From NCBI RefSeq assembly GCF_900188275.1, contig NZ_FZNY01000006.1:310001-374000 (forward strand): DNA of 64,000 nt, read 5' to 3'. How positions within the stretch are numbered: the first letter of the stretch is position 1; the number at the start of each line of letters is the position of its first letter. The position numbers and the translations under genes are program-made. The notes beneath the pieces were generated by a model, which saw only the letters and a program-made list of their open reading frames with translations, was not told the origin of the DNA and ran no database searches. Shown here piece after piece: positions 6,520 through 42,453 of this stretch. Origin of the DNA: Dokdonia pacifica. Lineage in GTDB: Bacteria > Bacteroidota > Bacteroidia > Flavobacteriales > Flavobacteriaceae.

Positions 6520-7491
6520 ATGAAGTGGATTCTCTTCTTATTGTTATTCCCTATCTGTAGTTTTGCTCAGGTAGATACTTCTAATACCGCTTTCGCGAAA
6601 GCGGAAACCTTTTTTAATAATAAGAAATACACACAAGCAAAACCTATTTTTCAATCCTATCTAAAACAGCATCCTAATGATCTCAAAACACTAGAGTATT
6701 TAGGAGATATTTATGGATATGCCGAAGACTGGGATGAAGCTATAAATTATTACGAGAAGCTAGTAGAACTAGCTCCAAAAGTAGCCAATTACCATTATAA
6801 GTATGGTGGTGTGTTAGGGATGAAAGCACTAGCAATAAGCAAAATAAGAGCTTTGGCTCTTGTAGGTGATATTAAAGAAGCCTTTGTGACCGCAACCGAA
6901 TTAGATCCTACACATATAGAAGCACGCTGGGCATTAGTAGAATTTTATATTCAATTACCTGGAATTATAGGGGGGAGTGAAAGTAAAGCAAAACGCTATG
7001 CTAATGAGCTTTCTAAATTATCTCCAGTAGATGGGTATCTAGCACATGGATATATCGCAGAATATAACGATAAGCCTAAAGACGCAGAGTATAATTATAA
7101 GAAAGCGGTAGCTGTAGGAGGCTCTGTGGTTTGTTATACCAAATTATACGAACATTATGAAAAAAATGATGCCCCAGATAAAGCACTACAAGTACTAGAT
7201 GAGGCACGGAAAAAATACAATTCTGAAAATCGATTACACTACCAATTAGGGAAAATAGCAGGGCAATATGGTATCGGACTTGATCAAGGAATAGAATGTC
7301 TTGATAAATATATCATGAATTATACGCCAGCCGATGGCGTTCCTAAAGATTGGGCGTACTATAGACTTGCGCAGATATATAGGCATAAAATGGAAAAACA
7401 AAAGGCATCTGTTTGGATTTCAAAAGCACTGGAAGATCGTCCTGACTTTAAAGAAGCATTGGCAGAAAAGAAAATTATAGAGTTGCTTTAA
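6520..7491 (+). CDS. Exported tetratricopeptide repeat protein
   Basis: About 323 residues. The ATG at 6520 begins a clean Sec signal peptide (MKWILFLLLFPICSFAQ); an upstream TTG at 6478 would read through the promoter box and is rejected. The mature part contains TPR-like helices (for example YLGDIYGYAEDWDEAINYYEK and a later YHYKYGGVLG segment), so it is probably a periplasmic scaffold. The sequence resembles flavobacterial tetratricopeptide proteins without a known partner. The in-frame palindrome at 6587-6604 encodes AFAKA at the junction between signal peptide and first TPR. It is convergent with the M15 peptidase gene, and the two stop codons overlap. Confidence 0.8.
   Translation: MKWILFLLLFPICSFAQVDTSNTAFAKAETFFNNKKYTQAKPIFQSYLKQHPNDLKTLEYLGDIYGYAEDWDEAINYYEKLVELAPKVANYHYKYGGVLGMKALAISKIRALALVGDIKEAFVTATELDPTHIEARWALVEFYIQLPGIIGGSESKAKRYANELSKLSPVDGYLAHGYIAEYNDKPKDAEYNYKKAVAVGGSVVCYTKLYEHYEKNDAPDKALQVLDEARKKYNSENRLHYQLGKIAGQYGIGLDQGIECLDKYIMNYTPADGVPKDWAYYRLAQIYRHKMEKQKASVWISKALEDRPDFKEALAEKKIIELL
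6587..6604. repeat. Iterated palindrome inside the TPR gene
   Basis: Perfect 18-bp palindrome CCGCTTTCGCGAAAGCGG, read in frame as T-A-F-A-K-A-E. Confidence 0.9.
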
Positions 7492-8228
7492 CCTATTAAA
7501 TATGGATTGATATCCAATATATTTTCTTGAATGTATCGATCAATAAATGCTGAGGTAAGATGCTCACTTCCTAGTAATTTGTTTTCTTGTAATATTACTT
7601 TTATGTCTAATTCTTTATAACTTTTTAAATACGGTATAGATAATGGTGCATAGCTATAATGCCATGGTTCATACTTAAATCCTTTTCTATCTTTTCTATC
7701 TGTATATACTAAGTAAAACCCAAAAGAATTTGCATGTACATCCATCCATTCTTTAAACTTGCAGAAAGGTCCAGTACCGTGAAACTTTGAAGGCACAAGA
7801 ACATCTCCAGTTACTTTTGGTCTACCGTCTATAAGATCGATGTCTGTTCCCCAATGATGTCTAGATGTTCCAGGAATGGTAGAATACGCTATAATCTTTT
7901 GAATCGCTTGAGTAGGAGAGAGCCCGCTTTTGCGAAAACGATTATACTTGCGTTCCCAAATACTATTCTGATGCGCATAATTTCGGTAACTAGACACTAC
8001 TTTAACCTGAATTTTATCTTTTAAAGCAGCAGCTTTTAATCGCTCAAAAGCACTAGCAGCATCAGGGCGTAATTTATATCCTGTTCCAGAAGTTAATACT
8101 GGATTTCCTTTCCCTAATAATTCATTTCCAGAAATTTGATTCTCTGTAATAGATGCATAAAGTTGTACAGGAATTGTAGCGGCGATGCTTCCTAAAATGG
8201 CAGTTTTGGTAAATGTTCTACGATTCAT
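7488..8228 (-). CDS. M15 family D-alanyl-D-alanine carboxypeptidase (VanY-like), Tat signal
   Basis: Peptidoglycan carboxypeptidase of the VanY/M15B family, 246 residues. Zinc-binding signatures are present: SRHHWGTDIDLID supplies the His and Asp ligands and EPWHYSYAP supplies catalytic Glu and the last His. The N-terminus NRRTFTKTAILGSIAATIP is a twin-arginine signal, so the enzyme is probably folded before export to the periplasm, which fits tatA elsewhere in the window. Its start overlaps the stop of the upstream GNAT gene by 4 bases, so the two are translationally coupled. Confidence 0.88.
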   Translation of the reverse strand: MNRRTFTKTAILGSIAATIPVQLYASITENQISGNELLGKGNPVLTSGTGYKLRPDAASAFERLKAAALKDKIQVKVVSSYRNYAHQNSIWERKYNRFRKSGLSPTQAIQKIIAYSTIPGTSRHHWGTDIDLIDGRPKVTGDVLVPSKFHGTGPFCKFKEWMDVHANSFGFYLVYTDRKDRKGFKYEPWHYSYAPLSIPYLKSYKELDIKVILQENKLLGSEHLTSAFIDRYIQENILDINPYLIG

Positions 8229-9166
8229 TCAAGTTCTTTTTTCATTAAATAATGAGGACCTATTAACGGAATATCAAATTCAGGGCCAATAGTCTCATAC
8301 CCCATATTTTTATAAAAAGAAACAGCTATAATTCTAGCATTAAACCACAATAAGGTACAATTTCTTTCTTTAAGTATCTTTTCTCCTTTTTTCAATAAAA
8401 GCTCAGCAATGCCTCGCCTACGATATTCAGGGAGTACAGCCATCCCTCTAAGTCTGTATTGAATGCCCTTAAAAATAGGTTTGGAATCATCCATAAAGGA
8501 AGCAACACCTACAATAGCTTCTTTGTGAAAAATACCTACGTGAAATGTAGATTCTTTTTCATCGGCTTCCATATATACATCTTTAAGAGGTCTCCCTTTA
8601 CGTAATACAGGATGCCGAACCGGCCAGGTTTCTTCAGCAGTAATTTGCTTTAAGATATAATCAGGGTTGTCCTTACGATAGAGCTTTGCAGGCAGTCCAT
8701 CATAATCAAAATCTTTTACAAAATGCATATCGCATTTTTTGATCACAGTATGTGAAGCCAAATTATGTATATGCGCATGTGCCACTAAGAATGGATATTT
8801 TAAAGAGTCAAAGGCAAATTGTATTACGGCTTTCGCACTTTCTGTTGCATACCCTTGGCCCCAATAGCATTTATAAAAACGATAGCCTATATCAACTACG
8901 CGATCTTGAGAATGATATTTTAAACCGCACCATCCTAGAAATTCTTGATCAGATTTGCGTATAACCGCCCAGCGACCAATACCTGTTTTTTTATAGGCAT
9001 CATACGTTTTTATAAATGTATGTGCTTCATCAACATCTTTAAATGGAGTATCTCCAGTATATTTTATTACTTCTGGGTCGGCATTCATTTGAAAGAAATG
9101 GATACCATCTCCTTTTTGAAATTCGCGTAAGAATAATCTATCAGTTTCTATAATAATAGCGCTCAC
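8225..9166 (-). CDS. Double GNAT acetyltransferase (RimJ/RimL-like domain fused to second GNAT)
   Basis: A 313-residue protein with two acetyltransferase domains. Residues 1 to about 165 match RimJ/RimL enzymes (ETDRLFLREF start; GYRFYKCYWGQGYATESAKAV acetyl-CoA loop). Residues from about 170 hold a second GNAT with the acetyl-CoA binding segment VLPEYRRRGIAELLLKKG and the terminal NARIIAVSFYKNMGYE motif. Substrates are unknown; the N-terminal domain type usually acetylates protein N-termini or small amines. It overlaps the M15 peptidase gene by 4 bases, suggesting cell-wall or stress context, but this is inference. Confidence 0.8.
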   Translation of the reverse strand: MSAIIIETDRLFLREFQKGDGIHFFQMNADPEVIKYTGDTPFKDVDEAHTFIKTYDAYKKTGIGRWAVIRKSDQEFLGWCGLKYHSQDRVVDIGYRFYKCYWGQGYATESAKAVIQFAFDSLKYPFLVAHAHIHNLASHTVIKKCDMHFVKDFDYDGLPAKLYRKDNPDYILKQITAEETWPVRHPVLRKGRPLKDVYMEADEKESTFHVGIFHKEAIVGVASFMDDSKPIFKGIQYRLRGMAVLPEYRRRGIAELLLKKGEKILKERNCTLLWFNARIIAVSFYKNMGYETIGPEFDIPLIGPHYLMKKELE

Positions 9167-9241: not shown

Positions 9242-10387
9242 TTATCTATTGATGTAAAAAGCGCCAGCAAGATCTTTTTGATCTTGTAATTTTAAAACAT
9301 AAAAATAAGTCCCTACAGGAAGTTCTGAACTGCCATCTATAGTTGCTCTTCCATCAGAAATACCGCCAAAAGAATTATCATAGTTCTTTTTTCTAAATAC
9401 TTCTACACCCCATCTATTAAAAAGAATCAATTCATTATCTGGACTTGTTTCAAGCCCTTCAATAATTAATGTGTCATTTTTTCCGTCTCCATTTGGTGAT
9501 ATCAAAGTGTATACAGTAATAGCTCCGTTACCTCTTAAAACAGAGCCAAAAGTAAGCGCACTGTATAAGTTCGGTTCAATAATATCAGAAGTGATTTCTC
9601 CCGATTCCATAGTTCCAGAAAAAGAGCTATTCCCTAAATTCACCCATTGGTTAAGTGCTGTAGAAAAACCAACAACTCTAAGAGATGATAGCTCATCAGC
9701 CAATATAGGAATTTCACTTTGCTCGTCCCAAGTTAATGTCACTCGAGCGGGCAATGTGCCATCTAGATCCCAGTATTCTTTTTCACTAATAATAGACAGT
9801 GTATTTTGAAATAAATCTGTATTGAAGAAACCAGTAAGGGTAGAAGGGGAGTTCGGATCTTCAAAGAAGTATGCCGCTTTATATAACGTAAACGTATTAT
9901 CTAATGGTAATACAGTCATTGTCCGAAGCCTAAAATCATCCCCAATAGGAAACCTGAAATCTAAATCTCCTGCATTGTTTATATATCCATCTACATGGGT
10001 ATTGTCTCCTTCTCCAGTATAAATACCATTATTCCTAAAATCTAACGTAACTCCTATAGTATTTCTAGGGGTAATGATTCGTCCATTTATAAAATCAAAG
10101 AAGTTGGTGACACCTGTAGAAACTTCAAAAAATAGGTCGTCAGGAACATCTACTTCCATATCAAAAAAGATAGGCTCATTGGTTCCAGATATAGTAAGAC
10201 TGTTGTTCTGATTGTAAAACCCAGCTAAGCCAAGATTATTATCAAAATCTCCATCATTAATTAAATCAATATGAAATCCAATTTGTCCTTGATCGTGTAT
10301 CTGTACATTTCCAAAATTGTGAAATGCTGTTTGCGCTTTCGCGAAAGCAAAAACAGAAATTAGCACTATAGTGATATAATATTTCAT
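9242..10387 (-). CDS. Secreted protein with T9SS type B (gliding-motility-associated) C-terminal sorting domain
   Basis: 381 residues with signal peptide ending at AFAKA-Q. The C-terminal 90 residues match the gliding-motility-associated CTD: SPNGDGKNDTLIIEGL, then ELILFNRWGVEVFRKKNY and a final GTYFYVLKL...GAFYINR. That domain sends proteins through the type IX secretion system to the cell surface. The preceding 280 residues form a beta-rich region with no family I recognise. The gene starts 6 bases after the stop of the giant collagen-like gene, so they are one operon and the proteins may act together on the surface. The signal-peptide end is encoded by an iterated palindrome (10335-10348). 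Confidence 0.88.
   Translation of the reverse strand: MKYYITIVLISVFAFAKAQTAFHNFGNVQIHDQGQIGFHIDLINDGDFDNNLGLAGFYNQNNSLTISGTNEPIFFDMEVDVPDDLFFEVSTGVTNFFDFINGRIITPRNTIGVTLDFRNNGIYTGEGDNTHVDGYINNAGDLDFRFPIGDDFRLRTMTVLPLDNTFTLYKAAYFFEDPNSPSTLTGFFNTDLFQNTLSIISEKEYWDLDGTLPARVTLTWDEQSEIPILADELSSLRVVGFSTALNQWVNLGNSSFSGTMESGEITSDIIEPNLYSALTFGSVLRGNGAITVYTLISPNGDGKNDTLIIEGLETSPDNELILFNRWGVEVFRKKNYDNSFGGISDGRATIDGSSELPVGTYFYVLKLQDQKDLAGAFYINR
10335..10348. repeat. Iterated palindrome inside a signal-peptide coding region
   Basis: Perfect 14-bp GCTTTCGCGAAAGC. On the minus strand it encodes A-F-A-K-A, the end of the signal peptide of the type B secreted protein. Confidence 0.9.
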
Positions 10388-10393
10388 AGCCTT

Positions 10394-13300
10394 TTACTTG
10401 TATGCAGTGAATAATACAATTACAGATTCGTCTAAAATATCATCTTGCCTATTAGCATTACCAGAAGTTCCTTCAGTATACGTAATGTCTAATGTAAACC
10501 CATCAGATTCAAAGGAAGTTATTCTTGCTGATATAACCCCCATATTATCTCCATCATTATCAGTATAACGTAACCCTATGCATTGATCGTCATTAGAATA
10601 TCTTGAGATATTATTTATGGAAGACCCACTCCCTCCGACAAAAATAACAGCTTGACTGATAGGGCTTCCGGCACGTGCAAATCCATTCATGGTTCCGAAG
10701 GTATTCTCTAAAAGTGCTGTGTTATTATCTGTATTAGCAGTTGGAGTATCTGCTAGGGCATTGTCTTCATTTAGATCAAAAGATCCAATATTAGGATGAG
10801 CGACAAAAGTAACTTGAGAAGGTTCAAAAGGAATCATATCAATTATTTGCTCATAAGTACCCGTATCTGTTAGTGTAGTATTATCTATTATAAAGAATCC
10901 AGTATATGCATTAGACGGTCCAATTTCACCTTGAGGTCCTTGCGGTCCTGTAGCACCATCTGCTCCGTCTGCACCAGCTGGTCCTGTTGCTCCAGTTTGT
11001 CCTTGTGGTCCTTGAGCTCCAGGGACTCCTTGTGGCCCTATAGGTCCTTGAGTTCCTTGCGGTCCAGTAGCACCAGTTGGCCCTGCAGGTCCTTGTGGTC
11101 CTGTTGCTCCATCCACTCCGTTTGTTCCATTAGTTCCAGCAGGTCCTTGTGGTCCAATCTCTCCTTGCGGTCCCTGTGGTCCTGTTGCTCCGTCTGCGCC
11201 ATTTATTCCATCGACACCTGCTGGTCCCTGTGGTCCTTGATCTCCGGTATCGCCCTTTGGTCCTTGAATTCCTTGGTTACCTTGCGGTCCCTGCGGTCCT
11301 GTTGCTCCATCAGCACCCGCTGGTCCTACCGGTCCTTGTGGTCCGACATCCCCTTGTGGTCCTTGCGGCCCTGTTGCTCCGTCTGCGCCATCCGTTCCGT
11401 TTGTTCCATCAGCACCTGCTGGTCCAATAGGCCCTTGTGGTCCGACATCACCTTGAGGTCCCTGAGGTCCTGTTGCTCCGTCTGCACCATCCGTTCCATT
11501 TATTCCATCAGCACCTGCTGGTCCAATGGGTCCTTGCGGCCCGACATTCCCTTGTGGTCCCTGCGGTCCTGTTGCTCCGTCTGCACCATCTATTCCGTTT
11601 GTTCCATCAGCACCTGCTGGTCCCTGCGGACCTGTTGCTCCGTCTGCGCCATCCACTCCGTTTATTCCATCAGTACCTGCGGGTCCTATCGGTCCTTGTG
11701 GTCCAACATCCCCTTGTGGTCCTTGCGGTCCTGTTGCTCCGTCTGCGCCATTTGTTCCATTTATTCCATCAGCGCCTGCTGGTCCAATGGGTCCTTGCGG
11801 TCCGACATCACCTTGTGGTCCCTGCGGTCCTGTTGATCCGTCTGCACCATCCGTTCCGTTAGTTCCATCAGCACCCACTGGTCCTACCGGTCCTTGTGGT
11901 CCGACATCACCTTGTGGTCCCTGCGGACCTGTTGCTCCGTCTGCACCATCTGTTCCGTTTGTTCCATCAGCACCTGCGGGTCCTATCGGTCCTTGCGGTC
12001 CGACATCACCTTGTGGTCCTTGCGGCCCTGTTGCTCCGTCCGCGCCATCTGTTCCGTTTGTTCCATCAGCACCTGCTGGTCCAATGGGTCCTTGTGGTCC
12101 GACATCACCTTGTGGTCCTTGAGGTCCTGTTGCTCCGTCTGCCCCATCTGTTCCGTTTGTTCCATCAGCACCTGCTGGTCCAATAGGCCCTTGCAGCCCG
12201 ACATCACCTTGTGGTCCTTGCGGCCCTGTTGCTCCGTCTGCACCATCCGCTCCATTTGTTCCATCAGCACCTGCGGGTCCTACCGGTCCTTGCGGTCCGA
12301 CATCTCCTTGAGGTCCTTGCGGTCCTGTTGCTCCGTCTGCACCATCTGTTCCGTTTATTCCATCAGCACCTGCTGGTCCTATCGGTCCTTGCGGTCCGAC
12401 ATCACCTTGTGGTCCCTGAGGTCCTGTTGCTCCGTCTGCCCCATCTGTTCCGTTTGTTCCATCAGCACCTGCGGGTCCTATCGGTCCTTGTGGTCCGACA
12501 TCACCTTGTGGTCCTTGCGGTCCTGTTGCTCCGTCTGCACCATCTGTTCCGTTTATTCCGTCAGCACCTGCTGGTCCAATAGGCCCTTGCGGCCCGACAT
12601 CACCTTGTGGTCCTTGCGGCCCTGTTGCTCCGTCCGCGCCATCCGTTCCGTTAGTTCCATCGGCACCTGCTGGTCCAATAGGCCCTTGCGGCCCGACATC
12701 ACCTTGTGGTCCCTGCGGTCCTGTTGCTCCGTCTGCACCATCTATTCCGTTTATTCCGTCAGCACCTGCGGGTCCAATAGGCCCTTGTGGTCCGACTTCA
12801 CCTTGTATTCCTTGGTCACCTTGTGGTCCCTGCGGTCCTGTTGCTCCATCTGCGCCATCTATTCCGTTAGTTCCGTCAGCACCAGCAGGTCCTACCGGTC
12901 CTTGCGGTCCCTGCGGTCCTGTTGCTCCGTCTGCACCATCCGCTCCGTTAGTTCCATCAGCACCTGCGGGTCCTATTGGTCCTTGTGGTCCAACATCGCC
13001 TTGAGGTCCCTGCGGACCTGTTGCTCCATCTGCGCCATCTATTCCGTTTATTCCATCAGCACCTGCTGGTCCAATGGGTCCTTGCGGTCCGACATCACCT
13101 TGTGGTCCCTGAGGTCCTGTTGCTCCGTCTGCACCATCCGCTCCATTTGTTCCATCAGCACCTGCGGGTCCTATCGGTCCTTGCGGTCCAACTTCACCTT
13201 GTATTCCTTGGTCACCTTGTGGTCCCTGCGGTCCTGTTGCTCCGTCTGCACCGTCCGTTCCGTTTATTCCATCAGCACCCGCTGGTCCAATAGGTCCTTG

Positions 13301-16300
13301 CGGTCCGACATCCCCTTGTGGTCCTTGCGGACCTGTTGCTCCGTCAGCACCATCTGTTCCATTTGTTCCATCAGCACCTGCGGGTCCTATCGGTCCTTGC
13401 GGTCCGACATCACCTTGTGGTCCTTGCGGTCCTGTTGCTCCGTCTGCACCATCTGTTCCGTTTGTTCCATCGGCACCTGCTGGTCCAATAGGCCCTTGCG
13501 GCCCGACATCACCTTGTGGTCCTTGCGGCCCTGTTGCTCCGTCAGCACCTGCTGGTCCAATAGGTCCTTGTGGTCCGACATCTCCTTGTATTCCTTGGTC
13601 ACCTTGAGGTCCCTGCGGTCCTATTGCTCCGTCTGCGCCATCCGCTCCGTTTATTCCGTCAGTACCTGCGGGTCCTATCGGTCCTTGCGGTCCGACATCA
13701 CCTTGTGGTCCTGTTGCTCCGTCTGCGCCATCTGTTCCGTTAGTTCCGTCAGCACCTGCGGGTCCAATGGGTCCTTGTGGTCCGACATCCCCTTGTGGTC
13801 CTTGCGGCCCTGTTGCTCCGTCTGCACCATCTGTTCCGTTTATTCCATCAGCACCTGCTGGTCCTATCGGTCCTTGCGGTCCAACTTCACCTTGCGGTCC
13901 TGTTGCTCCATCTGCACCATTCACTCCATTTATTCCGTCAGCACCTGCGGGTCCAATGGGTCCTTGTGGTCCAACTTCACCTTGTATTCCTTGATCCCCT
14001 TGTGGTCCTTGCGGTCCTGTTGCTCCGTCCGTGCCATCTGTTCCGTTAGTTCCATCTGCCCCCGCTGGTCCAATAGGCCCTTGTGGTCCGACATCCCCTT
14101 GTGGTCCTTGCGGTCCTGTTGCTCCGTCTGCACCATCTATTCCGTTTGTTCCATCAGCACCTGCTGGCCCAATGGGTCCTTGCGGTCCGACATCACCTTG
14201 TGGCCCCTGCGGTCCTGTTGCTCCGTCTGCGCCATCAGTTCCGTTTATTCCGTCAGCCCCTGCAGGTCCAATCGGTCCTTGAGGTCCGATATCCCCTTGA
14301 GGTCCCTGCGGTCCTGTTGCTCCGTCTGCGCCATTTATTCCATCAGCACCCGCTGGTCCAATAGGTCCTTGCGGTCCAACTTCACCTTGTATTCCTTGAT
14401 CTCCTTGTGGTCCCTGTGGTCCTGTTGCTCCGTCTGCACCATCTGTTCCGTTTATTCCATCAGCACCTGCGGGTCCTATCGGTCCTTGCGGTCCGACATC
14501 GCCTTGTGGTCCCTGTGGTCCTGTTGCTCCGTCTGCACCATCTGTTCCATTTATTCCGTCAGCACCTGCGGGTCCAATAGGTCCTTGAGGTCCGACATCA
14601 CCTTGTGGTCCCTGAGGTCCTGTTGCTCCGTCTGCGCCATCTGTTCCGTTAGTTCCGTCAGCACCTGCTGGTCCTATCGGTCCTTGTGGTCCGACATCCC
14701 CTTGAGGTCCCTGAGGTCCTGTTGCTCCGTCTGCACCATCCGCTCCGTTAGTTCCATCAGCACCTGCGGGTCCTATCGGTCCTTGCGGTCCAACATCCCC
14801 TTGTAGTCCCTGCGGACCTGTTGCTCCGTCTGCACCATCCGCTCCGTTAGTTCCATCAACACCTGCGGGTCCTATCGGTCCTTGTGGTCCCTGCGGTCCT
14901 GTTGCTCCGTCTGCACCATCTGTTCCATTTATTCCGTCAGCACCTGCGGGTCCTATCGGTCCTTGTGGTCCGACATCCCCTTGAGGTCCCTGCGGTCCAG
15001 TTGCTCCGTCTGCACCATCTGTTCCGTTAGTTCCATCAGCACCAGCAGGTCCTACCGGTCCTTGTGGTCCGACATCCCCTTGTGGTCCTTGCGGCCCTGT
15101 TGCTCCGTCTGCACCATCTGTTCCATTTATTCCGTCAGCACCAGCTGGTCCAATCGGTCCTTGTGGTCCATCAGCACCTGCGGGTCCTATCGGTCCTTGC
15201 GGTCCAACATCCCCTTGTGGTCCTTGAGGTCCTGTTGCTCCGTCTGCTCCATTTATTCCATCAGCACCTGCTGGCCCTATCGGTCCTTGTGGTCCGACAT
15301 CCCCTTGTGGTCCCTGCGGTCCTGTTGCTCCGTCTGCACCAGCTGGTCCAATCGGTCCTTGCGGTCCAACATCCCCTTGTGGTCCTTGAGCTCCTGTTGC
15401 TCCGTCTACACCATCTGTTCCGTTTATTCCGTTAGCCCCTGCAGGTCCAATCGGTCCTTGCGGTCCAACTTCACCTTGTATTCCTTGATCTCCTTGTGGT
15501 CCCTGAGGTCCTGTGGCTCCGTCTGCGCCATCTGTTCCGTTAGTTCCATCAGCACCTGCGGGTCCAATAGGTCCTTGTGGTCCGACATCTCCTTGTATTC
15601 CTTGGTCACCTTGTGGTCCCTGCGGTCCTGTTGCTCCGTCTGTTCCGTTAGTTCCATCAGCACCTGCGGGTCCTATCGGCCCTTGTGGTCCGACATCACC
15701 TTGTGGTCCCTGCGGTCCTGTTGCTCCGTCTGCGCCATCTGTTCCGTTAGTTCCATCAGCTCCTGCGGGTCCTATCGGTCCTTGTGGTCCAACATCCCCT
15801 TGAGGTCCCTGCGGTCCTGTTGCTCCGTCTGCGCCATCTGTTCCGTTTATTCCGTCAGCACCCGCTGGTCCAATAGGTCCTTGAGGTCCGACATCACCTT
15901 GTGGTCCCTGCGGTCCTGTTGCTCCGTCTGCACCATCTGTTCCGTTTATTCCATCAGCACCTGCGGGTCCTATCGGTCCTTGTGGTCCGACATCACCTTG
16001 AGGTCCCTGCGGTCCTGTTGCTCCGTCTGCACCATCCGCTCCATTTGTTCCGTCAGCACCTGTGGGCCCTATCGGTCCTTGAGGTCCGACATCCCCTTGT
16101 GGCCCCTGCGGTCCTGTTGCTCCGTCTGCGCCATCAGTTCCGTTTATTCCGTCAGCCCCTGCAGGTCCAATCGGTCCTTGAGGTCCGATATCCCCTTGAG
16201 GTCCCTGCGGACCTGTTGCTCCGTCTGCACCATCTGTTCCATTTATTCCATCAACCCCCGCTGGTCCAATAGGTCCTTGCGGTCCGACATCACCTTGTGG

Positions 16301-17437
16301 TCCCTGAGGTCCTGTTGCTCCGTCTGCTCCATCCGTTCCATTTATTCCATCAGCACCTGCTGGTCCAATAGGCCCTTGTGGTCCGACATCCCCTTGTGGT
16401 CCCTGCGGTCCTGTTGCTCCGTCTGCACCATCTGTTCCATTTATTCCATCAGCACCAGCGGGTCCTATCGGCCCTTGCGGTCCGACATCACCTTGTGGTC
16501 CCTGCGGTCCTGTTGCTCCGTCTGCACCATCTGTTCCGTTAGTTCCATCAGCACCTGCGGGTCCTATCGGCCCTTGTGGTCCGACATCACCTTGTGGTCC
16601 CTGCGGTCCTGTTGCTCCGTCTGCACCATCTGTTCCATTTATTCCGTCAGCACCTGCGGGTCCAATTGGTCCTTGTGGTCCAACTTCACCTTGTATTCCT
16701 TGGTCACCTTGTGGTCCCTGTGGTCCTGTTGCTCCGTCTACACCATCTGTTCCGTTTGTTCCGTCAGCACCAGCAGGTCCTACCGGCCCTTGTGGTCCCT
16801 GCGGTCCTGTTGCTCCGTCTGCACCATCCGCTCCGTTAGTTCCATCAACACCAGCAGGTCCTACTGGTCCTTGTGGTCCGACATCCCCTTGTGGTCCTTG
16901 TGAAGTTGGTAAGGTGATTGTACCACCTCCATTACTTAATGTAAGATCTGTACCCTCTAAAGAGAATGTTTGTAACTCGTTTGTTGGGTCAGTGTCTAAA
17001 TCATTGGCAATAATTTCATCGATTGCATCTTGAACATTGGTAGCTCCTAATCCTGAATTGGTATTATTATATGGACTTGATGTTGCATTAGTATCTATAA
17101 TGACTGTATCTCCTAATACATTTGTAAATGTAAAAGTGCCATCTTGATTGTCTACTAATGTTGGGGCGTTGTCAATATCACAGAGACTTGTCCAATTAAT
17201 GCCATTGTATTGAAACACACAATTTTCATCGGTATTATATACCATACCACCAGCTAATGGTGTAATTGTATTCATTTGAGTATTTGTAACTCGAGTAATG
17301 ACAAGTACTTTAGAAGTGTTTTCTAATTCTAATAGAGAATTGTTATCTATTGTATCTGGATTATCTCCTACTTTTATTTGAGCAATACTACTTAATGTGC
17401 TAAATAGTATTAGAAATAGCGTAATTTTTTTTAACAT
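10394..17437 (-). CDS. Giant collagen-like surface protein (about 665 Gly-X-Y triplets)
   Basis: 2347 residues. Residues 1-19 are a signal peptide ([19 protein letters not shown]). Residues 20-180 form an N-terminal region with an S-L-L-E-L-E-N motif and [20 protein letters not shown], resembling N-terminal domains of flavobacterial fibre-like surface proteins. Residues 181-2175 are a continuous Gly-X-Y tract; its length divides exactly by three and no break in register is seen. The repeat unit is 33 residues (11 triplets; [19 protein letters not shown] then [15 protein letters not shown]). It is rich in Asp and almost free of Lys and Arg. Residues 2176-2347 form a globular C-terminal region that could trimerise the chains; it is not a recognisable T9SS sorting domain. 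It is operonic with the type B protein downstream. Function is probably a surface fibre or matrix element, by inference. Confidence 0.95.
10913..16897. repeat. 99-bp minisatellite array encoding the collagen domain
   Basis: About 6 kb of tandem degenerate 99-bp units (roughly sixty), with shorter deletion variants and inserts of the type GDQGIQG. The array is visibly more GC-rich than the flanks. The plus strand is also nearly stop-free because of the periodicity, which creates long spurious antisense frames. Confidence 0.95.
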
Positions 17438-17672: not shown

Positions 17673-17748
17673 GCGGGAGTAGCTCAGTTGGTAGAGCGTC
17701 AGCCTTCCAAGCTGAATGTCGCCGGTTCGAACCCGGTCTCCCGCTCCA
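17673..17748 (+). tRNA. tRNA-Gly (TCC anticodon)
   Basis: Full cloverleaf of 76 bases: acceptor GCGGGAG pairs with CTCCCGC, D arm GCTC/GAGC, anticodon arm TCAGC-CTTCCAA-GCTGA with anticodon TCC, T arm GCCGG-TTCGAAC-CCGGT, and an encoded CCA tail. A terminator follows six bases later. It is a single tRNA gene, with no integrase or attachment-site repeat nearby. Confidence 0.97.
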
Positions 17749-17875: not shown

Positions 17876-18580
17876 TTAAAAATCTAATATACTGCCAGTA
17901 TCTATTTCGTATGGAGCTTTACCTTTTTCGAAGATACGTGCGGTTGGTGTTCCTTTAAGTTGTATGGTCTGGTTTTTTACTTCCAGCCAACTGCCTTCTC
18001 TTATTCCTACAACAGGAATTGTATTATGAGCGTGAAATTCTTTAATTCTTGTTTCGCGAGTTTCTCCCATATGGGTGCTTCCTTTAATGGGGTCTAGATA
18101 ATGAGGATTAATATTAAAGGGTAGTGCGCCTATGGTTTTAAAGCTTGGAGGATATGTGATAGGCATATCATTTGTGGTTTGCATGGTGAGTCCGCAAATA
18201 TTACTGCCTGCACTTGTTCCTAAATAAGGAGTGCCTTCAAAGATTTTTTTTCGTAAAGCAGGAAGGATATTTGTTTTGTATAGTTGATTTACAAGAACAA
18301 AAGTATTGCCTCCTCCTGTAAAAATACCTTCTGCATTTTCAATAGCTTCTATCGTATCTGTAAAGATGTGAAGCCCGATTATTTTTTTGCCAATCTTTTT
18401 GAATGCTTTAGATGCTATATCTGTGTATTGATCATGTGATATTCCTCCAGGTCTTGCATAGGGTATAAAAATGATTGTATCTGTATTTTTATAAAAGGTT
18501 TCTAATTCTGGTAAAAGATATTCTAAATAGCCACTTCCATGTATAGTTGAAGTACTTGCTATGATCAAATTTTTAGGCAT
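17876..18580 (-). CDS. pepE: Dipeptidase E (peptidase S51)
   Basis: Serine peptidase of family S51, which in enteric bacteria cleaves Asp-X dipeptides in the cytoplasm. The 234 residues show the nucleophile elbow GTSAGSNICG and the preceding GGGNTFVLV segment of the class I amidotransferase-like fold. No signal peptide is seen. It stands alone between tRNA-Gly and the paralogue cluster, in the opposite direction to both. Length agrees with E. coli PepE (229 residues). Confidence 0.9.
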   Translation of the reverse strand: MPKNLIIASTSTIHGSGYLEYLLPELETFYKNTDTIIFIPYARPGGISHDQYTDIASKAFKKIGKKIIGLHIFTDTIEAIENAEGIFTGGGNTFVLVNQLYKTNILPALRKKIFEGTPYLGTSAGSNICGLTMQTTNDMPITYPPSFKTIGALPFNINPHYLDPIKGSTHMGETRETRIKEFHAHNTIPVVGIREGSWLEVKNQTIQLKGTPTARIFEKGKAPYEIDTGSILDF

Positions 18581-18693: not shown

Positions 18694-19527
18694 ATGTATA
18701 AAGTACTATTCCTTTTTTTATTATTTATAGGGACTACCGTTTTTTCTCAGGAAACTATTCTTCTGAAAGGGAATGTGCTGAATGATACTATTGAGAAAGC
18801 TTCATTGAATGTTGTGAATTTGAATTTACGTAAAGGGGCTATCACGAATGAGGCTGGTGTTTTTGAAATTCCTGTACGTCTACATGATACTATACATATA
18901 AGTGCGGTTCAATATGAGTCTAGGGAGTTTATAGTTACTCAGAAAATTTATAATGAGAAAGAAGTTTCTTTGTATCTAGTTCCAAAAATTAATGAGCTGG
19001 ATGAAATACAGTTGAGTAATAGGCTTTTGTCAGGTAATTTGGAAGAAGATGCTAGTAGTTCTTCTTTAAAAAAACAGTTAGCTCTCGTGAAAGATATGAG
19101 TGACAAAGGGCTACTTCAAGATATAAAGGTGCCTACTAAAGAAGCACGGAGGTTACATACTGCTACAACAGGAATAAATGGGAAAGGAGGGATAGGTATT
19201 ACGGGGTTTATTGTGCCCCTTCCGTTAATAATTAACGGAATAAGTGGTAAAACAAAACGCTTAAAAAAACACATTGCTGTAGTAGCATATCAAGAGCAAA
19301 TAGAAGGAGCTTTAAATCGTTTTCCAGATTCTATACTAATAGCTTATTTAAAAATCCCAGAAGAACAATTGGAAGATTTTGTTTTTTATGCATTAAAAGA
19401 TGAAAAGAAATTAAAGACAATAAATGTAGATAACCCTATCCTTTTTTTAGATTATTTATATGAAAAATCTATAAAGTATCATGCATTAAGAGAGAAAGAA
19501 GTGTTTGTAAAAAACAAAAATAAGTAA
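18694..19527 (+). CDS. Carboxypeptidase-regulatory-like domain protein, paralogue 1 of 3
   Basis: 277 residues with signal peptide (MYKVLFLFLLFIGTTVFSQ). Residues 20-110 form a CarboxypepD_reg-like beta-sandwich: LKGNVLNDTIEKASLNVVN, then KGAITNEAGVFEIPV and SAVQYESREF. The C-terminal half is a helical region of unknown role ending with LxIPEEQLEDFVFY, shared with the next two genes. Proteins with this domain in flavobacteria usually sit in the periplasm or outer membrane. Its TAA stop overlaps the ATG of paralogue 2 (TAATG). It is the most diverged copy in the middle part. Confidence 0.75.
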   Translation: MYKVLFLFLLFIGTTVFSQETILLKGNVLNDTIEKASLNVVNLNLRKGAITNEAGVFEIPVRLHDTIHISAVQYESREFIVTQKIYNEKEVSLYLVPKINELDEIQLSNRLLSGNLEEDASSSSLKKQLALVKDMSDKGLLQDIKVPTKEARRLHTATTGINGKGGIGITGFIVPLPLIINGISGKTKRLKKHIAVVAYQEQIEGALNRFPDSILIAYLKIPEEQLEDFVFYALKDEKKLKTINVDNPILFLDYLYEKSIKYHALREKEVFVKNKNK

Positions 19528-20330
19528 TGGGTAGTCAGCGTTGTTTTTTACTACTATTTCTCTTGATGTCATGTGTTTTAATGGGGCAAGAAGCGGTCAT
19601 ACTTAAAGGGCAAGTTCTTAATGATTCTATTGAGAAAGCTTCTCTTACAGTTGTCAATATCTCTTTAAAAAAGGGAGCTATCACGAATGAAGCAGGTGTT
19701 TTTGAAATTCCTGCGCGTGTACATGATACCATTAATATCAGTGCAGTTCAATATGAGTCTAGACAGTTTGTAGTTACTCAAAAAATGTATGATCGTAAAA
19801 GGATGTCTTTATATTTAGTTCCAAAAATTAACCAATTAGACGAAGTTGAGATTAGTAACATTAATCTTACGGGAGATTTACGTAGAGATATTTTAAATAC
19901 GCCTCTTAAAAAAACACTTACAGCGGCAGATCTTGGACTTCCTGCAAATAAGCATGCTCCTTTTACACCCGAGGAACGAAGAATGTATAGTGCAAGTCCG
20001 GCAGGGGCAGGGGCTTTTGGAGCACTCATGATGGCTATAAATGGACAAGCAAAGCAATATAAAAAACAATTAGAAATCATGCGTTTTCAAATTAAAGTAG
20101 AGAAAGCCCGTTCAACGTTTTCCGACACACTTTATATGAAATCTTTAAACATACCTGAGACTCTTATTGAAGATTTTGTTTATTTTGTTTTTGAAGAAAA
20201 AAAGGCAGAGGGAAAGGATGATAAAGAAAATGCCATAGAATTGTTAGATTATATGCTTACAAAATCTAAAAAATACTTAGTTTTAAAAGAAAAAGAAGGA
20301 GTGCTCACTAAGAATAAAAAACATGAATAA
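19527..20330 (+). CDS. Carboxypeptidase-regulatory-like domain protein, paralogue 2 of 3
   Basis: 267 residues with signal peptide (MGSQRCFLLLFLLMSCVLMGQ). It repeats the domain order of its neighbours: beta-sandwich with LKGQVLNDSIEKASLTVVN and SAVQYESRQF, a variable linker (residues about 120-160) and a C-terminal helical region with LNIPETLIEDFVYFVFEE. The signal peptide contains a cysteine (LMSC) but not in a good lipobox. It overlaps paralogue 1 by one base and paralogue 3 by eight bases (ATGAATAA), so the three are co-translated. Confidence 0.75.
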   Translation: MGSQRCFLLLFLLMSCVLMGQEAVILKGQVLNDSIEKASLTVVNISLKKGAITNEAGVFEIPARVHDTINISAVQYESRQFVVTQKMYDRKRMSLYLVPKINQLDEVEISNINLTGDLRRDILNTPLKKTLTAADLGLPANKHAPFTPEERRMYSASPAGAGAFGALMMAINGQAKQYKKQLEIMRFQIKVEKARSTFSDTLYMKSLNIPETLIEDFVYFVFEEKKAEGKDDKENAIELLDYMLTKSKKYLVLKEKEGVLTKNKKHE

Positions 20331-21108
20331 AATTATAAAATTTAGTGTATTATGTTTCCTTCTGATGGGGTATAATGCATATTCACAAAGAGCTATAGAG
20401 TTAAGAGGTCAGGTTCTTAATGATACTATTGATAAAGCACAACTTACAGTAGTTAATATCTCTTTAAAGAAAGGGACTACTACAGATGCAAATGGAATCT
20501 TTACTATAGAGGCACGCGTAAATGATACGATCAATATAAGCGCTGTTCAATATGAATCTAGACAGTTTGTAGTTAACGAAACCATGTATAATCGCAAAAA
20601 GATATCGCTATATCTTATTCCAAAAGTAACAGAGTTAGAAACAGTAGAGATTAGTAACATTGATCTTACAGGAGATTTGAATAAAGATATTCGTTCTACA
20701 AAGTTTAAAAAAGAAGTAACAGCCAAAGAGTTAGGTATTCCTGAAAATACAGCGCCAAAACGTACTATAGAGGAACGTAGATATTATACCGCTGTTACTA
20801 GTGGCTCGGGTATTCCATTAGATGGGCTTATTAATTCTATTACGGGAAGACTTAAAATGCTTAAAAAACATATTGAGGTGTCTCGATTTGAAAAGTTAGT
20901 ACAAGAGAGTCGTTATCGTATTTCAGATACGGTGTATATGAAGAATTTAAACATTCCAGAAGAGTTGATAGAAGATTTTGTGTATTATGTTTTTGAAGAT
21001 ACTCATGCAAAAGAGCTAGTAGATGCAAATAATGCGCTAGGTCTTTTAGAATTTATGATGCAAAAATCAAAACCCTACATTAGGTTAAAAGAAAGCGAAA
21101 AAGAATAA
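20323..21108 (+). CDS. Carboxypeptidase-regulatory-like domain protein, paralogue 3 of 3
   Basis: 261 residues with signal peptide (MNKIIKFSVLCFLLMGYNAYSQ). Same architecture as the two upstream copies: LRGQVLNDTIDKAQLTVVN, KGTTTDANGIFTIEA, SAVQYESRQF, then C-terminal LNIPEELIEDFVYYVFED. The shared C-terminal signature lies outside the CarboxypepD_reg domain and marks this as a specific subfamily. No enzymatic motif is visible; the function is unknown. It ends the three-gene set, 87 bases before the DUF6702 gene. Confidence 0.75.
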   Translation: MNKIIKFSVLCFLLMGYNAYSQRAIELRGQVLNDTIDKAQLTVVNISLKKGTTTDANGIFTIEARVNDTINISAVQYESRQFVVNETMYNRKKISLYLIPKVTELETVEISNIDLTGDLNKDIRSTKFKKEVTAKELGIPENTAPKRTIEERRYYTAVTSGSGIPLDGLINSITGRLKMLKKHIEVSRFEKLVQESRYRISDTVYMKNLNIPEELIEDFVYYVFEDTHAKELVDANNALGLLEFMMQKSKPYIRLKESEKE

Positions 21109-40492: not shown

Positions 40493-40548
40493 CTCAAATC
40501 TCAAATCTCAAATCTCAAATCTCAAATCTCAAATCTCAAATCTCAAAT
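40493..40548. repeat. Heptamer array (CTCAAAT)x8
   Basis: Eight perfect tandem CTCAAAT copies, 56 bp, ending 9 bases beyond the ABC-F stop codon and 26 bases from the methyltransferase start. On the minus strand it reads (ATTTGAG)8. No gene is disrupted. Confidence 0.95.
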
Positions 40549-40557
40549 CTCCAAGGG

Positions 40558-42453
40558 TTATTCTTCCATTTTTGCAGAGAGTTCAAACCAGCGTTCTTCT
40601 TTGGTATCTATATCCGTTATAATTTTTTCTAGTTCTTTTGAGGCCTCTGTAATTTGATCTTGTGTTAAATCAGGATTTAAGAATTCTTTTTCTTTTTCAA
40701 TTTTATCTCTCTCCAGTTGTGCGATTTCTCGTTCTAATTTGGTGTGTTCTTTTTGTTCTTGGTAGGAAAGTTTTCCTGTGTGTTGTTTTTCTTTCCAGCT
40801 TTTTTTAGGTTCGGATACTTCTATTGCAGCGGTTGTGTTTTTTGCTGCATCCGCTTTCGCGAAAGCGGAATTAATATCTCCTTCATAGGTTCTGAAGTCG
40901 CTATAATTTCCTGGAAAATCTTCTACAATAGCATCGCCTTTGAATACAAAAAGGTGATCTACGATTTTATCCATGAAATAACGATCGTGTGATACAACTA
41001 CGAGGCAACCAGGGAAATCAAGAAGGAAATTTTCAAGTACGTTAAGTGTTACAACATCTAGATCATTAGTAGGTTCATCGAGAATAAGAAAATTAGGATT
41101 TTGAATGAAAACGGTACATAAATACAGACGTTTGCGCTCACCTCCACTTAATTTTTCTACATAATCGTATTGTTTTTTTCTGTCAAAAAGAAAGCGTTCT
41201 AAAAGCTGTCCGGCTGAAATAGTGCGCCCCTTTTTAAGGGGAATGAAATCACCAAACTCTTTGATAACTTCAATAACTTTTTGTCCTTCTTTTATATGGA
41301 TTCCTTTCTGGGTATAGTAACCAAATTTTACGGTGTCACCAACAATTACTTTTCCTGTGTCTGGCGGTAATGCACCTGTCATAATATTAAGGAACGTTGT
41401 TTTTCCTGTTCCATTTTTTCCTATAATTCCAATACGTTCTCCAGTTTTAAAAACATATTCAAATTTATTGAGTAAGGTAAGGTCACCATAGGATTTGCCT
41501 ACATTATGAAATTCTAGGATTTTACTTCCTAGACGTTCCATATTGATTTCTAATTGTACTTGGTGGTCATTACGACGTTTGTGTGCTCTCTCTTTAATTT
41601 CAAAAAAGTCATCAATACGAGATTTTGATTTTGTAGTACGTGCCTTGGGTTGTCTACGCATCCACTCCAATTCTTTTTTGTAGAGCTGTTTTGCTTTTGC
41701 TGTTTCGGATGCTTGAGCAGCCATACGAGCATCTTTATTCTCTAAATAATAAGCATAATTCCCTTTGTAACTGTAGAGTTGCCCGTCTTCAAGCTCTACA
41801 ATTTCATTACACACATTTTCTAGAAAATAACGATCATGTGTAACCATAAAAAGGGTGAGGTTTTCCTTTTTGAAATATTCTTCCAACCATTCAATCATTT
41901 CAAGATCCAAATGGTTTGTGGGTTCATCTAGAATGACTAAGTCTGGATTGTTTAATAATAAAACAGCAAGGGCAAGACGTTTTTTTTGGCCTCCACTCAG
42001 TAAATTTACTTTACGACTTAGGTCATCTAATTTTAGTTTGAAAAGAATTTGTTTGTATTGCGTTTCAAAGTCCCATGCTTGCGCAGCTTCCATAGCATCA
42101 AAAGCTTTTTGGTAAGCTTCTTGATCTTCCATATGGAGTAGGGCTTTTTCATAGGCGGCAATAATTTGTAATATTTTATTGCCACTAGAAAATATGGTTT
42201 CTTCTATACTTAATGTAGGGTCTAGATCTGGCTCTTGAGGCAAAAAAGAAATTGTGATTCCTTTTCTAGAAATCACTTGTCCGTTATCAGGAGTGTCTAA
42301 TCCAGCAACAATATGTAATAGTGATGTTTTTCCCGTTCCATTTTTTGCGACAAATCCTATTTTTTGATCTTTATTAATTCCAAAGGAAATGTCTTTAAAT
42401 AAGGTGCGTTCTCCAAATGATTTTGATATTTGCTCAACCGAAAGGTAATTCAA
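40558..42453 (-). CDS. ABC-F family ATPase (Uup-like)
   Basis: 631 residues with two ATP-binding domains and no membrane segment. First domain: Walker A AKNGTGKTSLLH, signature LSGGQKKRLALA, Walker B LVILDEPTNHLD; second domain: GKNGTGKTTFLN, LSGGERKRLYL, FLILDEPTNDLD. The C-terminus has a coiled coil rich in Glu and Lys (EREIAQLERDKIEKEKEF). Length and coiled coil fit Uup, a ribosome- and DNA-linked ABC-F. An in-frame palindrome encodes AFAKA in the linker before the coiled coil. Confidence 0.9.
   Translation of the reverse strand: MNYLSVEQISKSFGERTLFKDISFGINKDQKIGFVAKNGTGKTSLLHIVAGLDTPDNGQVISRKGITISFLPQEPDLDPTLSIEETIFSSGNKILQIIAAYEKALLHMEDQEAYQKAFDAMEAAQAWDFETQYKQILFKLKLDDLSRKVNLLSGGQKKRLALAVLLLNNPDLVILDEPTNHLDLEMIEWLEEYFKKENLTLFMVTHDRYFLENVCNEIVELEDGQLYSYKGNYAYYLENKDARMAAQASETAKAKQLYKKELEWMRRQPKARTTKSKSRIDDFFEIKERAHKRRNDHQVQLEINMERLGSKILEFHNVGKSYGDLTLLNKFEYVFKTGERIGIIGKNGTGKTTFLNIMTGALPPDTGKVIVGDTVKFGYYTQKGIHIKEGQKVIEVIKEFGDFIPLKKGRTISAGQLLERFLFDRKKQYDYVEKLSGGERKRLYLCTVFIQNPNFLILDEPTNDLDVVTLNVLENFLLDFPGCLVVVSHDRYFMDKIVDHLFVFKGDAIVEDFPGNYSDFRTYEGDINSAFAKADAAKNTTAAIEVSEPKKSWKEKQHTGKLSYQEQKEHTKLEREIAQLERDKIEKEKEFLNPDLTQDQITEASKELEKIITDIDTKEERWFELSAKMEE
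40851..40868. repeat. Iterated palindrome inside the ABC-F gene
   Basis: Perfect CCGCTTTCGCGAAAGCGG, read on the minus strand as S-A-F-A-K-A-D in the linker between second ATPase domain and coiled coil. Confidence 0.9.

Follow-up and report, generated by a model that had tools for sequence, protein, structure and literature searches.

A stretch of 64,000 nucleotides from the genome of Dokdonia pacifica, referred to below as the window, contains on its minus strand (10394..17437) a gene for a 2347-residue protein that consists largely of an uninterrupted, acidic collagen-like rod. We consider there to be about an even chance that the encoded chain assembles as a homotrimer into a surface fibre with a collagen stalk, in all probability serving as an adhesin, which is displayed together with a type IX secretion system (T9SS) type B protein, the partner, encoded immediately downstream. 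The parts of this proposal differ in strength: judging from the sequence, the rod is highly likely to be a genuine collagen domain, which would form a triple helix, while it is rather likely that the rod protein is a surface fibre, and plausible, at slightly less than even confidence, that the fibre would be displayed by way of the partner. The gene probably belongs to a family of long bacterial surface fibres, and what is new here is a T9SS-partnered fibre module with swappable stalks, together with the similar net charge found across its rods.

The fibre gene, which lies inside a contig of 411,660 bases, starts with ATG and comprises 2347 codons plus a stop codon. Its product begins with a signal-peptide-like N-terminus as read from the sequence (residues 1-20, 17378..17437, minus strand like all parts of the gene), followed by an N-domain (residues 21-180, 16898..17377) with the core KVGDNP..SLLELE..VYNTD..C.FQYNG..W..LC and a linker containing VQDAIDEI. 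The collagen rod (residues 181-2175, 10913..16897) is composed of 665 uninterrupted Gly-X-Y triplets with a 33-residue unit and a net charge of -228, and the C-terminal head of 172 residues (residues 2176-2347, 10397..10912) is 75% identical to the heads of four Dokdonia collagen proteins. The second longest perfect Gly-X-Y run in the whole protein has only 2 triplets, and the Pfam collagen family PF01391 is matched above its cut-off at 44 places in the reading frame. Proline occupies the X position in 296 of the 665 triplets, whereas Gln (197) and Asp (165) are the commonest residues at the Y position, in which Pro occurs once. The commonest repeat units are 33 residues long (two variants, present in 11 and 10 identical copies) and the others range from 12 to 66 residues. 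The rod contains 220 Asp, 9 Glu, one Lys and no Arg, that is, 3.79 acidic residues per 33, and these acids are evenly spread (-8 to -13 per 99 residues) without any dense cluster. The sole Lys belongs to a GPK triplet towards the C-terminus of the rod, and four Dokdonia relatives likewise have exactly one Lys in a GPK triplet. At a rise of 0.286 nm per residue, on which all rod lengths given here are based, the 1995 rod residues correspond to a predicted length of 571 nm. An original prediction made from the DNA letters had placed about 665 unbroken triplets at residues 181-2175 of this minus-strand reading frame and had described a rod of about 570 nm with about four Asp per 33-residue unit and practically no Lys or Arg, all of which agrees with the values above. 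The rod is longer than human type I collagen. With regard to base composition, GC content reaches up to 58% in 2-kb windows within the array as compared to about 28-37% outside, and CCG is used for 104 of 297 Pro codons in the rod as compared to 32 of 562 elsewhere in the window. Plus-strand open reading frames (ORFs) over the array (970 and 673 residues) were rejected as complements of the repeat.

The two terminal domains have no known family. Nothing above cut-off was found for the N-domain in Pfam or NCBIfam, its best PHROG match having an E-value of 0.0018, and no NCBIfam family matched the head. The head is conserved in an alignment of 66 rows, and its best match to a profile of a solved structure has an E-value of only 0.83; searches with Pfam on 18 heads, with PHROGs on 66 heads and with PADLOC on three sequences gave nothing usable. 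An LPXTG sorting signal is absent from the fibre translation, which ends in ...VLFTAYK. Searching flavobacterial genomes for relatives of both terminal domains, as had been suggested with the original prediction, was productive in both cases.

The partner gene (9242..10387, minus strand) starts 6 bp past the fibre stop codon and encodes 381 residues, the last of which (residues 293-381, 9245..9511) form a T9SS type B sorting domain (TIGR04131, 40 bits against a cut-off of 35; CHU_C, E-value 4.1e-25). All eight partner relatives that were scanned exceed the type B cut-off. A single partner copy is present in the source genome, and 12 of 18 Dokdonia genomes have one each; all ten Dokdonia genomes with a strong head match (E-value below 1e-30) are among these 12 (hypergeometric probability 0.0015). 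Genomes compared are designated by G-numbers and loci by L-numbers, G000 being the source genome. In the two remaining genomes, which have a partner and no strong head match, the partner directly follows the cut end of a gene of the same cluster (G001) or lies three small genes after a beta-repeat-like gene (G011), the term beta-repeat-like being a label given by reading parts of the stalk sequences. Relatives of the head were found in 154 stretches of GTDB contigs, 80 of which were kept (the 80 head loci). A partner lies within 3.5 kb downstream in 53 of these, including all six that bear collagen, although one of the 53 matches, in L112, covers only 40 residues at the edge of a contig. As the partner gene comes after fibre genes that differ in their heads, in many cases separated from them by just a few bases, and also after non-collagen stalk genes, the two genes appear to form a functional pair. 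No porP/sprF gene lies next to the partner, so that it does not form a pair of the SprB/SprF kind, and it is regarded as an orphan type B protein because its contig contains no PorP/SprF match. The source genome possesses SprA and eight PorP/SprF (PF11751) matches, five of them near full length, all in other contigs. No terminator-like site was found on the minus strand between 8900 and 18700.

Long collagen fibres of this kind are not confined to D. pacifica. Collagen matches (E-value at most 1e-6) were detected in 99 of 397 genomes of Flavobacteriaceae, and in a phylum-wide sample in 42 of 345 genomes, some of which belong to the same family. Rods were surveyed in 47 collagen ORFs from 45 of the 99 genomes, taking the best E-values first and mostly one place per genome; 16 of the 47 ORFs are truncated at contig ends. 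The longest rod, in G467:C1 (loci L153 and L201, within a single 4.69-Mb contig), belongs to a protein of 5371 residues with 1713 unbroken triplets, corresponding to 1470 nm, and has a partner homologue downstream; the idea that the D. pacifica rod might be the longest bacterial collagen was therefore rejected. Further long rods are present in G306 (a run of 1018 triplets, cut by a contig end), G255 (578) and G197 (391). Among the surveyed rods, 16 have a run of 200 triplets or more, and all of these except G238 (15 of 16) are followed by a partner homologue within 1.3 kb downstream; of the 11 that had not seeded the partner hidden Markov model (HMM), 10 are. The N-domain HMM matched 13 of 14 rods of at least 200 triplets with an uncut N-terminus (all eight non-seed rods; the miss is G043), and at least six kinds of head could be distinguished among the surveyed rods by their C-terminal sequences. 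Since the N-domain and the partner recur while heads and stalks differ, the constant elements of the module are the N-domain and the partner, and its variable elements are the type and length of the stalk and the head. A second fibre type, with a head ending in ...LINVVFVVK and more distant partners of 546-657 residues, was noted in L155 (G435), L156 (G043) and L157 (G330); by reading, PorP/SprF-like genes adjoin in L156 and L157. Two more short collagen stretches occur in the source genome, G000:C21:586069-586170 (12 triplets) and G000:C12:144666-144752 (10 triplets), both near the N-terminus of lipoprotein-like proteins.

Comparison of the same locus in close relatives illustrates how such genes may be put together. 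Four sister genomes (G006, G003, G008 and G016) have at the same place the 75% identical head mentioned above, carried on 63, 77, 52 and 60 triplets, respectively, and in each of them two further genes, the first of which encodes a second head, lie between this gene and the partner. A separate giant non-collagen gene is next upstream in G003, G008 and G016, the three in which the fetched region shows that place. Related heads are carried on long non-collagen (beta-repeat-like) stalks in G017, G009, G012 and G002. In G013, one contig ends in the array after 194 triplets and another begins inside it with 36 triplets followed by head and partner, while a contig of G007 ends 13 triplets into the array. 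The N-domain is 82% identical to that of G007, 68% to that of G013 and 53-54% to the giant proteins of the sister species G016 and G008; it shares 38-50% identity with seven other collagen proteins, 22-36% with G043, G435 and Ulvibacter, and just 29% with the N-terminus of the G006 collagen protein. With respect to the sister genomes, the present gene thus unites the head of one of their genes with an N-terminus that resembles that of another, the giant gene.

The heads likewise change their stalks across a wider range of genomes. Collagen of 13 to 249 triplets is present in 6 of the 80 head ORFs, two of the six being truncated at contig ends; the other head ORFs are mostly short head genes, with some long non-collagen stalks of up to 2144 residues (Gilvibacter); Dokdonia head ORFs on non-collagen stalks have 733-756 residues. 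Related heads therefore occur on 665, 52-77 or 13-249 triplets, on non-collagen stalks or with no long stalk, and the collagen label requires at least four changes on the head tree, a quick tree of 86 rows in which 32 of 82 inner branches are open. A contig end lies within 3 kb on the stalk side of 28 of the 80 head loci as compared to 4 of 80 on the other side (stalk-side distances are approximate, being taken as ORF end minus 500), and at those contig ends beta-repeat-like sequence predominates, with collagen in some cases and neither of the two in a few. This excess suggests that repetitive stalk genes tend to break assemblies. Two stalks at contig ends (L116 and L135) alternate short Gly-X-Y runs with a NGIASTVDNGNGTFTLNFTDG... 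repeat and thus appear to be mixed collagen/beta-repeat-like.

Several features of the array indicate that it is genuine. The longest exact repeat within it measures 116 bp, and every 127-mer in it is unique. When codons one 33-residue unit apart are compared, identity at codon positions 1, 2 and 3 is 0.81, 0.86 and 0.60, respectively, and the lower value for third positions points to purifying selection on the protein. All 665 glycines are retained despite this third-position divergence. The ratio of non-synonymous to synonymous differences (pN/pS) among 35 canonical units is 0.065, a figure whose non-synonymous part is biased low since the units were picked by a protein motif. Adjacent units are as alike as distant ones (0.894 and 0.892), and this, together with mainly synonymous differences, suggests an old array maintained by selection. 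To judge from these patterns, the array reads as neither a fresh slippage product nor a collapse or expansion artefact.

The rod charge was compared among 25 collagen regions of Flavobacteriaceae with at least 100 triplets, counted as totals of runs (four regions have more than one run, such as the two runs of Lacinutrix and the 29 short runs that make up the 419 triplets of G435). One genome (G049) entered this set twice, and five regions are cut by contig ends and three by the chosen region limits. The net charge per triplet averages -0.302 (standard deviation 0.078), as compared to -0.343 for the present rod, while Lys plus Arg ranges from 0 to 0.355 per triplet and acidic residues rise with Lys (r = 0.80); 11 of the 25 regions are practically Lys-free (Lys plus Arg at most 0.006 per triplet). 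The original prediction, which had announced an uninterrupted acidic collagen domain in a flavobacterium, was thus right about the kind of protein and overstated its rarity and its charge: a rod of 1713 triplets and another with a run of at least 1018 exceed it in length, and its charge per triplet is close to the mean of related regions. Eight regions of at least 30 triplets from other Bacteroidota families, only three of which have at least 99, average -0.034 (standard deviation 0.066, range -0.13 to +0.06); they were drawn from 21 of 29 new loci, the eight of the window's own family being omitted, and nine shorter regions (0 to -1.00 per triplet) are uncounted. Four more regions of the window's family, met in that sample, have values of -0.22, -0.23, -0.22 and -0.06. 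Two of them have at least 100 triplets, namely G542 (-0.22) and G791 (-0.06); they were met later, outside the set of 25, and their addition gives a mean of -0.29 and a standard deviation of 0.09 (n = 27). As the value of G791 is within the range found for other families, the two charge groups overlap. In this small sample, with habitat as a confounder, what tends to stay constant among the fibres is the net charge density and not the Lys content.

A trimer of the present rod is predicted to carry about 1.2 e/nm, with a Manning parameter of 0.85. According to Manning theory, in which the threshold for divalent ions is 0.5, such a value would condense divalent and not monovalent ions; sea salt would be expected to screen most of the repulsion anyway. 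With regard to the usual salt bridges between Lys and Asp or Glu, for which the original prediction had seen little chance in this rod, hydration networks of polar and charged residues are described to stabilize the helix without hydroxyproline (PMC8968730; here and below, papers in PubMed Central (PMC) are cited from excerpts). The example in that excerpt, Scl2.28, contains Lys and is therefore no test of a Lys-free rod.

With respect to the surroundings of the fibre gene, the partner is followed by genes for a GNAT acetyltransferase (8225..9166, minus strand) and a VanY D-Ala-D-Ala carboxypeptidase (7488..8228, minus strand), and upstream lies a gene for a peptidase of family S51 (17876..18580, minus strand), all three assigned by Pfam; the S51 gene is also found in G008 and G013 (in both by reading) and in Lacinutrix. 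A tRNA-Gly (TCC) gene (17673..17748, plus strand) is a conserved neighbour between the S51 gene and the fibre gene. The order is the same in L084 of Lacinutrix venerupis: S51, tRNA-Gly, an N-domain-collagen (41 + 208 triplets)-head gene, partner, GNAT and VanY. Although this tRNA reads GGA and GGG, which make up 514 of the 665 glycine codons of the rod, its coupling to the glycine-rich rod was rejected, considering that the same tRNA lies beside a non-collagen giant gene in G008 and that the Lacinutrix rod next to it prefers GGT. Its occurrence at the corresponding place in G008, G013, G007 and Lacinutrix is probably synteny only. Elsewhere in the window, three tandem plus-strand genes (18694-21108; 277, 267 and 261 residues) have translations that look paralogous and similar in their N-terminal parts, and a perfect heptamer repeat, CTCAAAT, with 8.4 copies (40493-40551) lies just past the stop of a minus-strand ORF (40561-42132).

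Taken as a surface fibre with a partner, the protein might work as follows. The chain would be exported by Sec and would trimerize via its head, and the rod would fold into a triple helix of about 570 nm, while the N-domain would remain at the cell and dock on the T9SS-exported partner, which in turn may be anchored on the cell by a PorP/SprF-like shuttle, the gene of which lies elsewhere. The head would thereby be held about half a micrometre off the cell, where it could act as an adhesin. The net negative charge, approximately one charge per nm of trimer, may keep the rods soluble and apart, Lys being optional. A link to gliding is only a possibility.

The protein could instead be released as a component of a biofilm, slime or capsule matrix, with its acidic rod as a soluble spacer and the partner as an independent surface protein that happens to share the operon. 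We consider this unlikely, even though some of the observations that fit it also weigh against the proposed display. The NCBIfam scan revealed neither a T9SS type A (TIGR04183) nor a type B (TIGR04131) domain on the fibre head, neither is listed for the four related fibres scanned whole, and no partner was found within 3.5 kb in 27 of the 80 head loci (26 short head genes and L074, a 701-residue ORF). A gene set of polysaccharide and glycosyltransferase type at about 42-64 kb of the window, judged from translation starts alone, would also suit a matrix role. Further points that count against the display proposal are the 290-triplet rod of G238, which has the N-domain and for which a partner was not found, and the type represented by G043, G435, G330 and G259, whose partner is more distant (E-value about 1e-30) and in which the N-termini of the two aligned members, G043 and G435, have diverged; moreover, the orientation with the N-terminus at the cell is suggested solely by which end of the protein is conserved. 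What argues against an independent partner is its presence after fibres with different heads in many genera, often only a few bases away, and after non-collagen stalk genes.

The remaining alternatives appear less probable still. The rod might serve chiefly as a polymer that binds Ca2+ or Mg2+ and is stabilized by these ions, as had been suggested with the original prediction, or nucleates mineral; the net charge of -228 with one Lys and the Manning parameter above the divalent threshold would be compatible with this, but the acids form no dense cluster and comparable rods rich in Lys are similar to this one in net charge, implying that the shared trait is net charge and not the absence of Lys, so that we regard such a function as improbable. 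It is very improbable that the array length is an assembly artefact or that the array is a functionless, neutrally expanding repeat. Four close relatives carry merely 52-77 triplets, genes of this kind break assemblies as shown by the excess of contig ends on the stalk side, and the contigs of G013 and G007 terminate inside the array; on the other hand, no 127-mer is repeated, every glycine is kept while third positions diverge, and the longer array of G467 sits inside a one-contig assembly. Misassembly, which had been named as one outcome that would undo the original prediction, is thus disfavoured, also by the position of the gene inside its long contig. Capture of a phage or contractile-injection tail fibre by the chromosome would fit the collagen stalk with its exchangeable C-terminal head, which resembles the build of phage fibres, and the weak similarity of the N-domain and single heads to PHROGs, some of which are labelled tail fibre or tail spike (best E-values 0.0018 and 0.0012). 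Yet none of 60 pattern candidates for viral relatives of the head could be confirmed in 2.9 million viral contigs, the order of S51, fibre, partner and VanY recurs in relatives, the partner bears a T9SS signal and none of the four neighbours scanned with Pfam is a phage gene, which together make such an origin very improbable indeed.

If the partnered surface fibre is the correct reading, the collagen rods made by flavobacteria can exceed one micrometre in length and in many cases lack Lys, and they would offer natural sequences for defining the minimum chemistry that stabilizes a very long triple helix, net charge being similar among them and Lys optional. It would also raise the question for the T9SS of whether a type B protein encoded next door can bring about the display of cargo that has no signal of its own. 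Combining the N-domain HMM with the partner HMM makes the module easy to find; since the arrays are often at contig ends, databases probably understate both its length and its frequency. A broader generalization, which we offer as speculative and on balance doubtful, is that Flavobacteriaceae have a display system in which a dedicated type B partner transports to the surface, or retains there, a Sec-exported trimeric fibre of collagen or beta-repeat-like kind that itself lacks a T9SS signal. Such fibres would be modular legs between 0.05 and 1.5 micrometres long, with heads that can be exchanged and a charge density that hardly varies, and the gliding machinery might move them. Many of the very long collagens of prokaryotes would then belong to this type, and they would be under-counted as their arrays break assemblies.

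Several known systems resemble the Dokdonia fibre in part. Collagen-stalked phage tail fibres also combine a collagen stalk with exchangeable C-terminal tips, although viral relatives of the Dokdonia head are unconfirmed (0 of 60 candidates). No description of flavobacterial or T9SS-linked collagen fibres, or of a similar net charge across such rods, was found among the papers listed from the open-licence PMC literature, which is not proof of absence. Within the same genus, a draft genome of Dokdonia donghaensis DSW-1 lacked a 'Collagen triple helix repeat protein' gene that was recovered by PacBio sequencing (PMC4974333), which fits with arrays breaking short-read assemblies; the excerpt of that paper mentions the gene once and does not describe it. 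Lcl of Legionella is a collagen-like adhesin of a Gram-negative bacterium that binds glycosaminoglycans (PMC11162425). The NCBIfam model of Lcl matches the four related fibres, best in their Gly-X-Y parts, and the model itself also covers Gly-X-Y sequence, whereas the Dokdonia head matches no NCBIfam family.

The gliding adhesins of the SprB type in Flavobacterium johnsoniae are from the same bacterial family and are likewise very long, repetitive surface proteins linked to a type B signal, SprB having 6497 residues (PMC9950754). The Dokdonia system differs from them in that the type B domain belongs to a second protein, encoded by the adjoining gene, that porP/sprF is not adjacent and that the repeat is collagen. 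Type B proteins such as PG1035 and SprB bind PorP-like proteins (PMC9143113), and three orphan type B proteins of F. johnsoniae without an adjacent sprF use one SprF-like shuttle and, in the model of the same paper, go to the gliding machinery (PMC12618676). In tests with the C-terminal domain of one of these orphans, however, the foci were mostly static, and only 3% of cells showed moving foci (PMC12618676). These orphans and the Dokdonia partner both have a type B C-terminal domain without an adjacent sprF, a likeness by gene context alone, and a collagen neighbour is unmentioned in the excerpts of PMC12618676.

In overall architecture, the Dokdonia protein is most readily compared to the streptococcal proteins Scl1 and Scl2 and to BclA of Bacillus, proteins of the PF01391 kind that likewise consist of a globular domain, a Gly-X-Y rod and another globular domain, with Pro mostly in the X position. 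Scl1 and Scl2 have 50 and 79 repeats, respectively (PMC8968730), and the Dokdonia rod is about eight to thirteen times longer. It also differs from the Scl and BclA proteins in being unbroken, in containing practically no Lys or Arg, in its lack of an LPXTG signal, in N- and C-terminal domains that belong to no known family, and in the T9SS type B gene with which it is paired.

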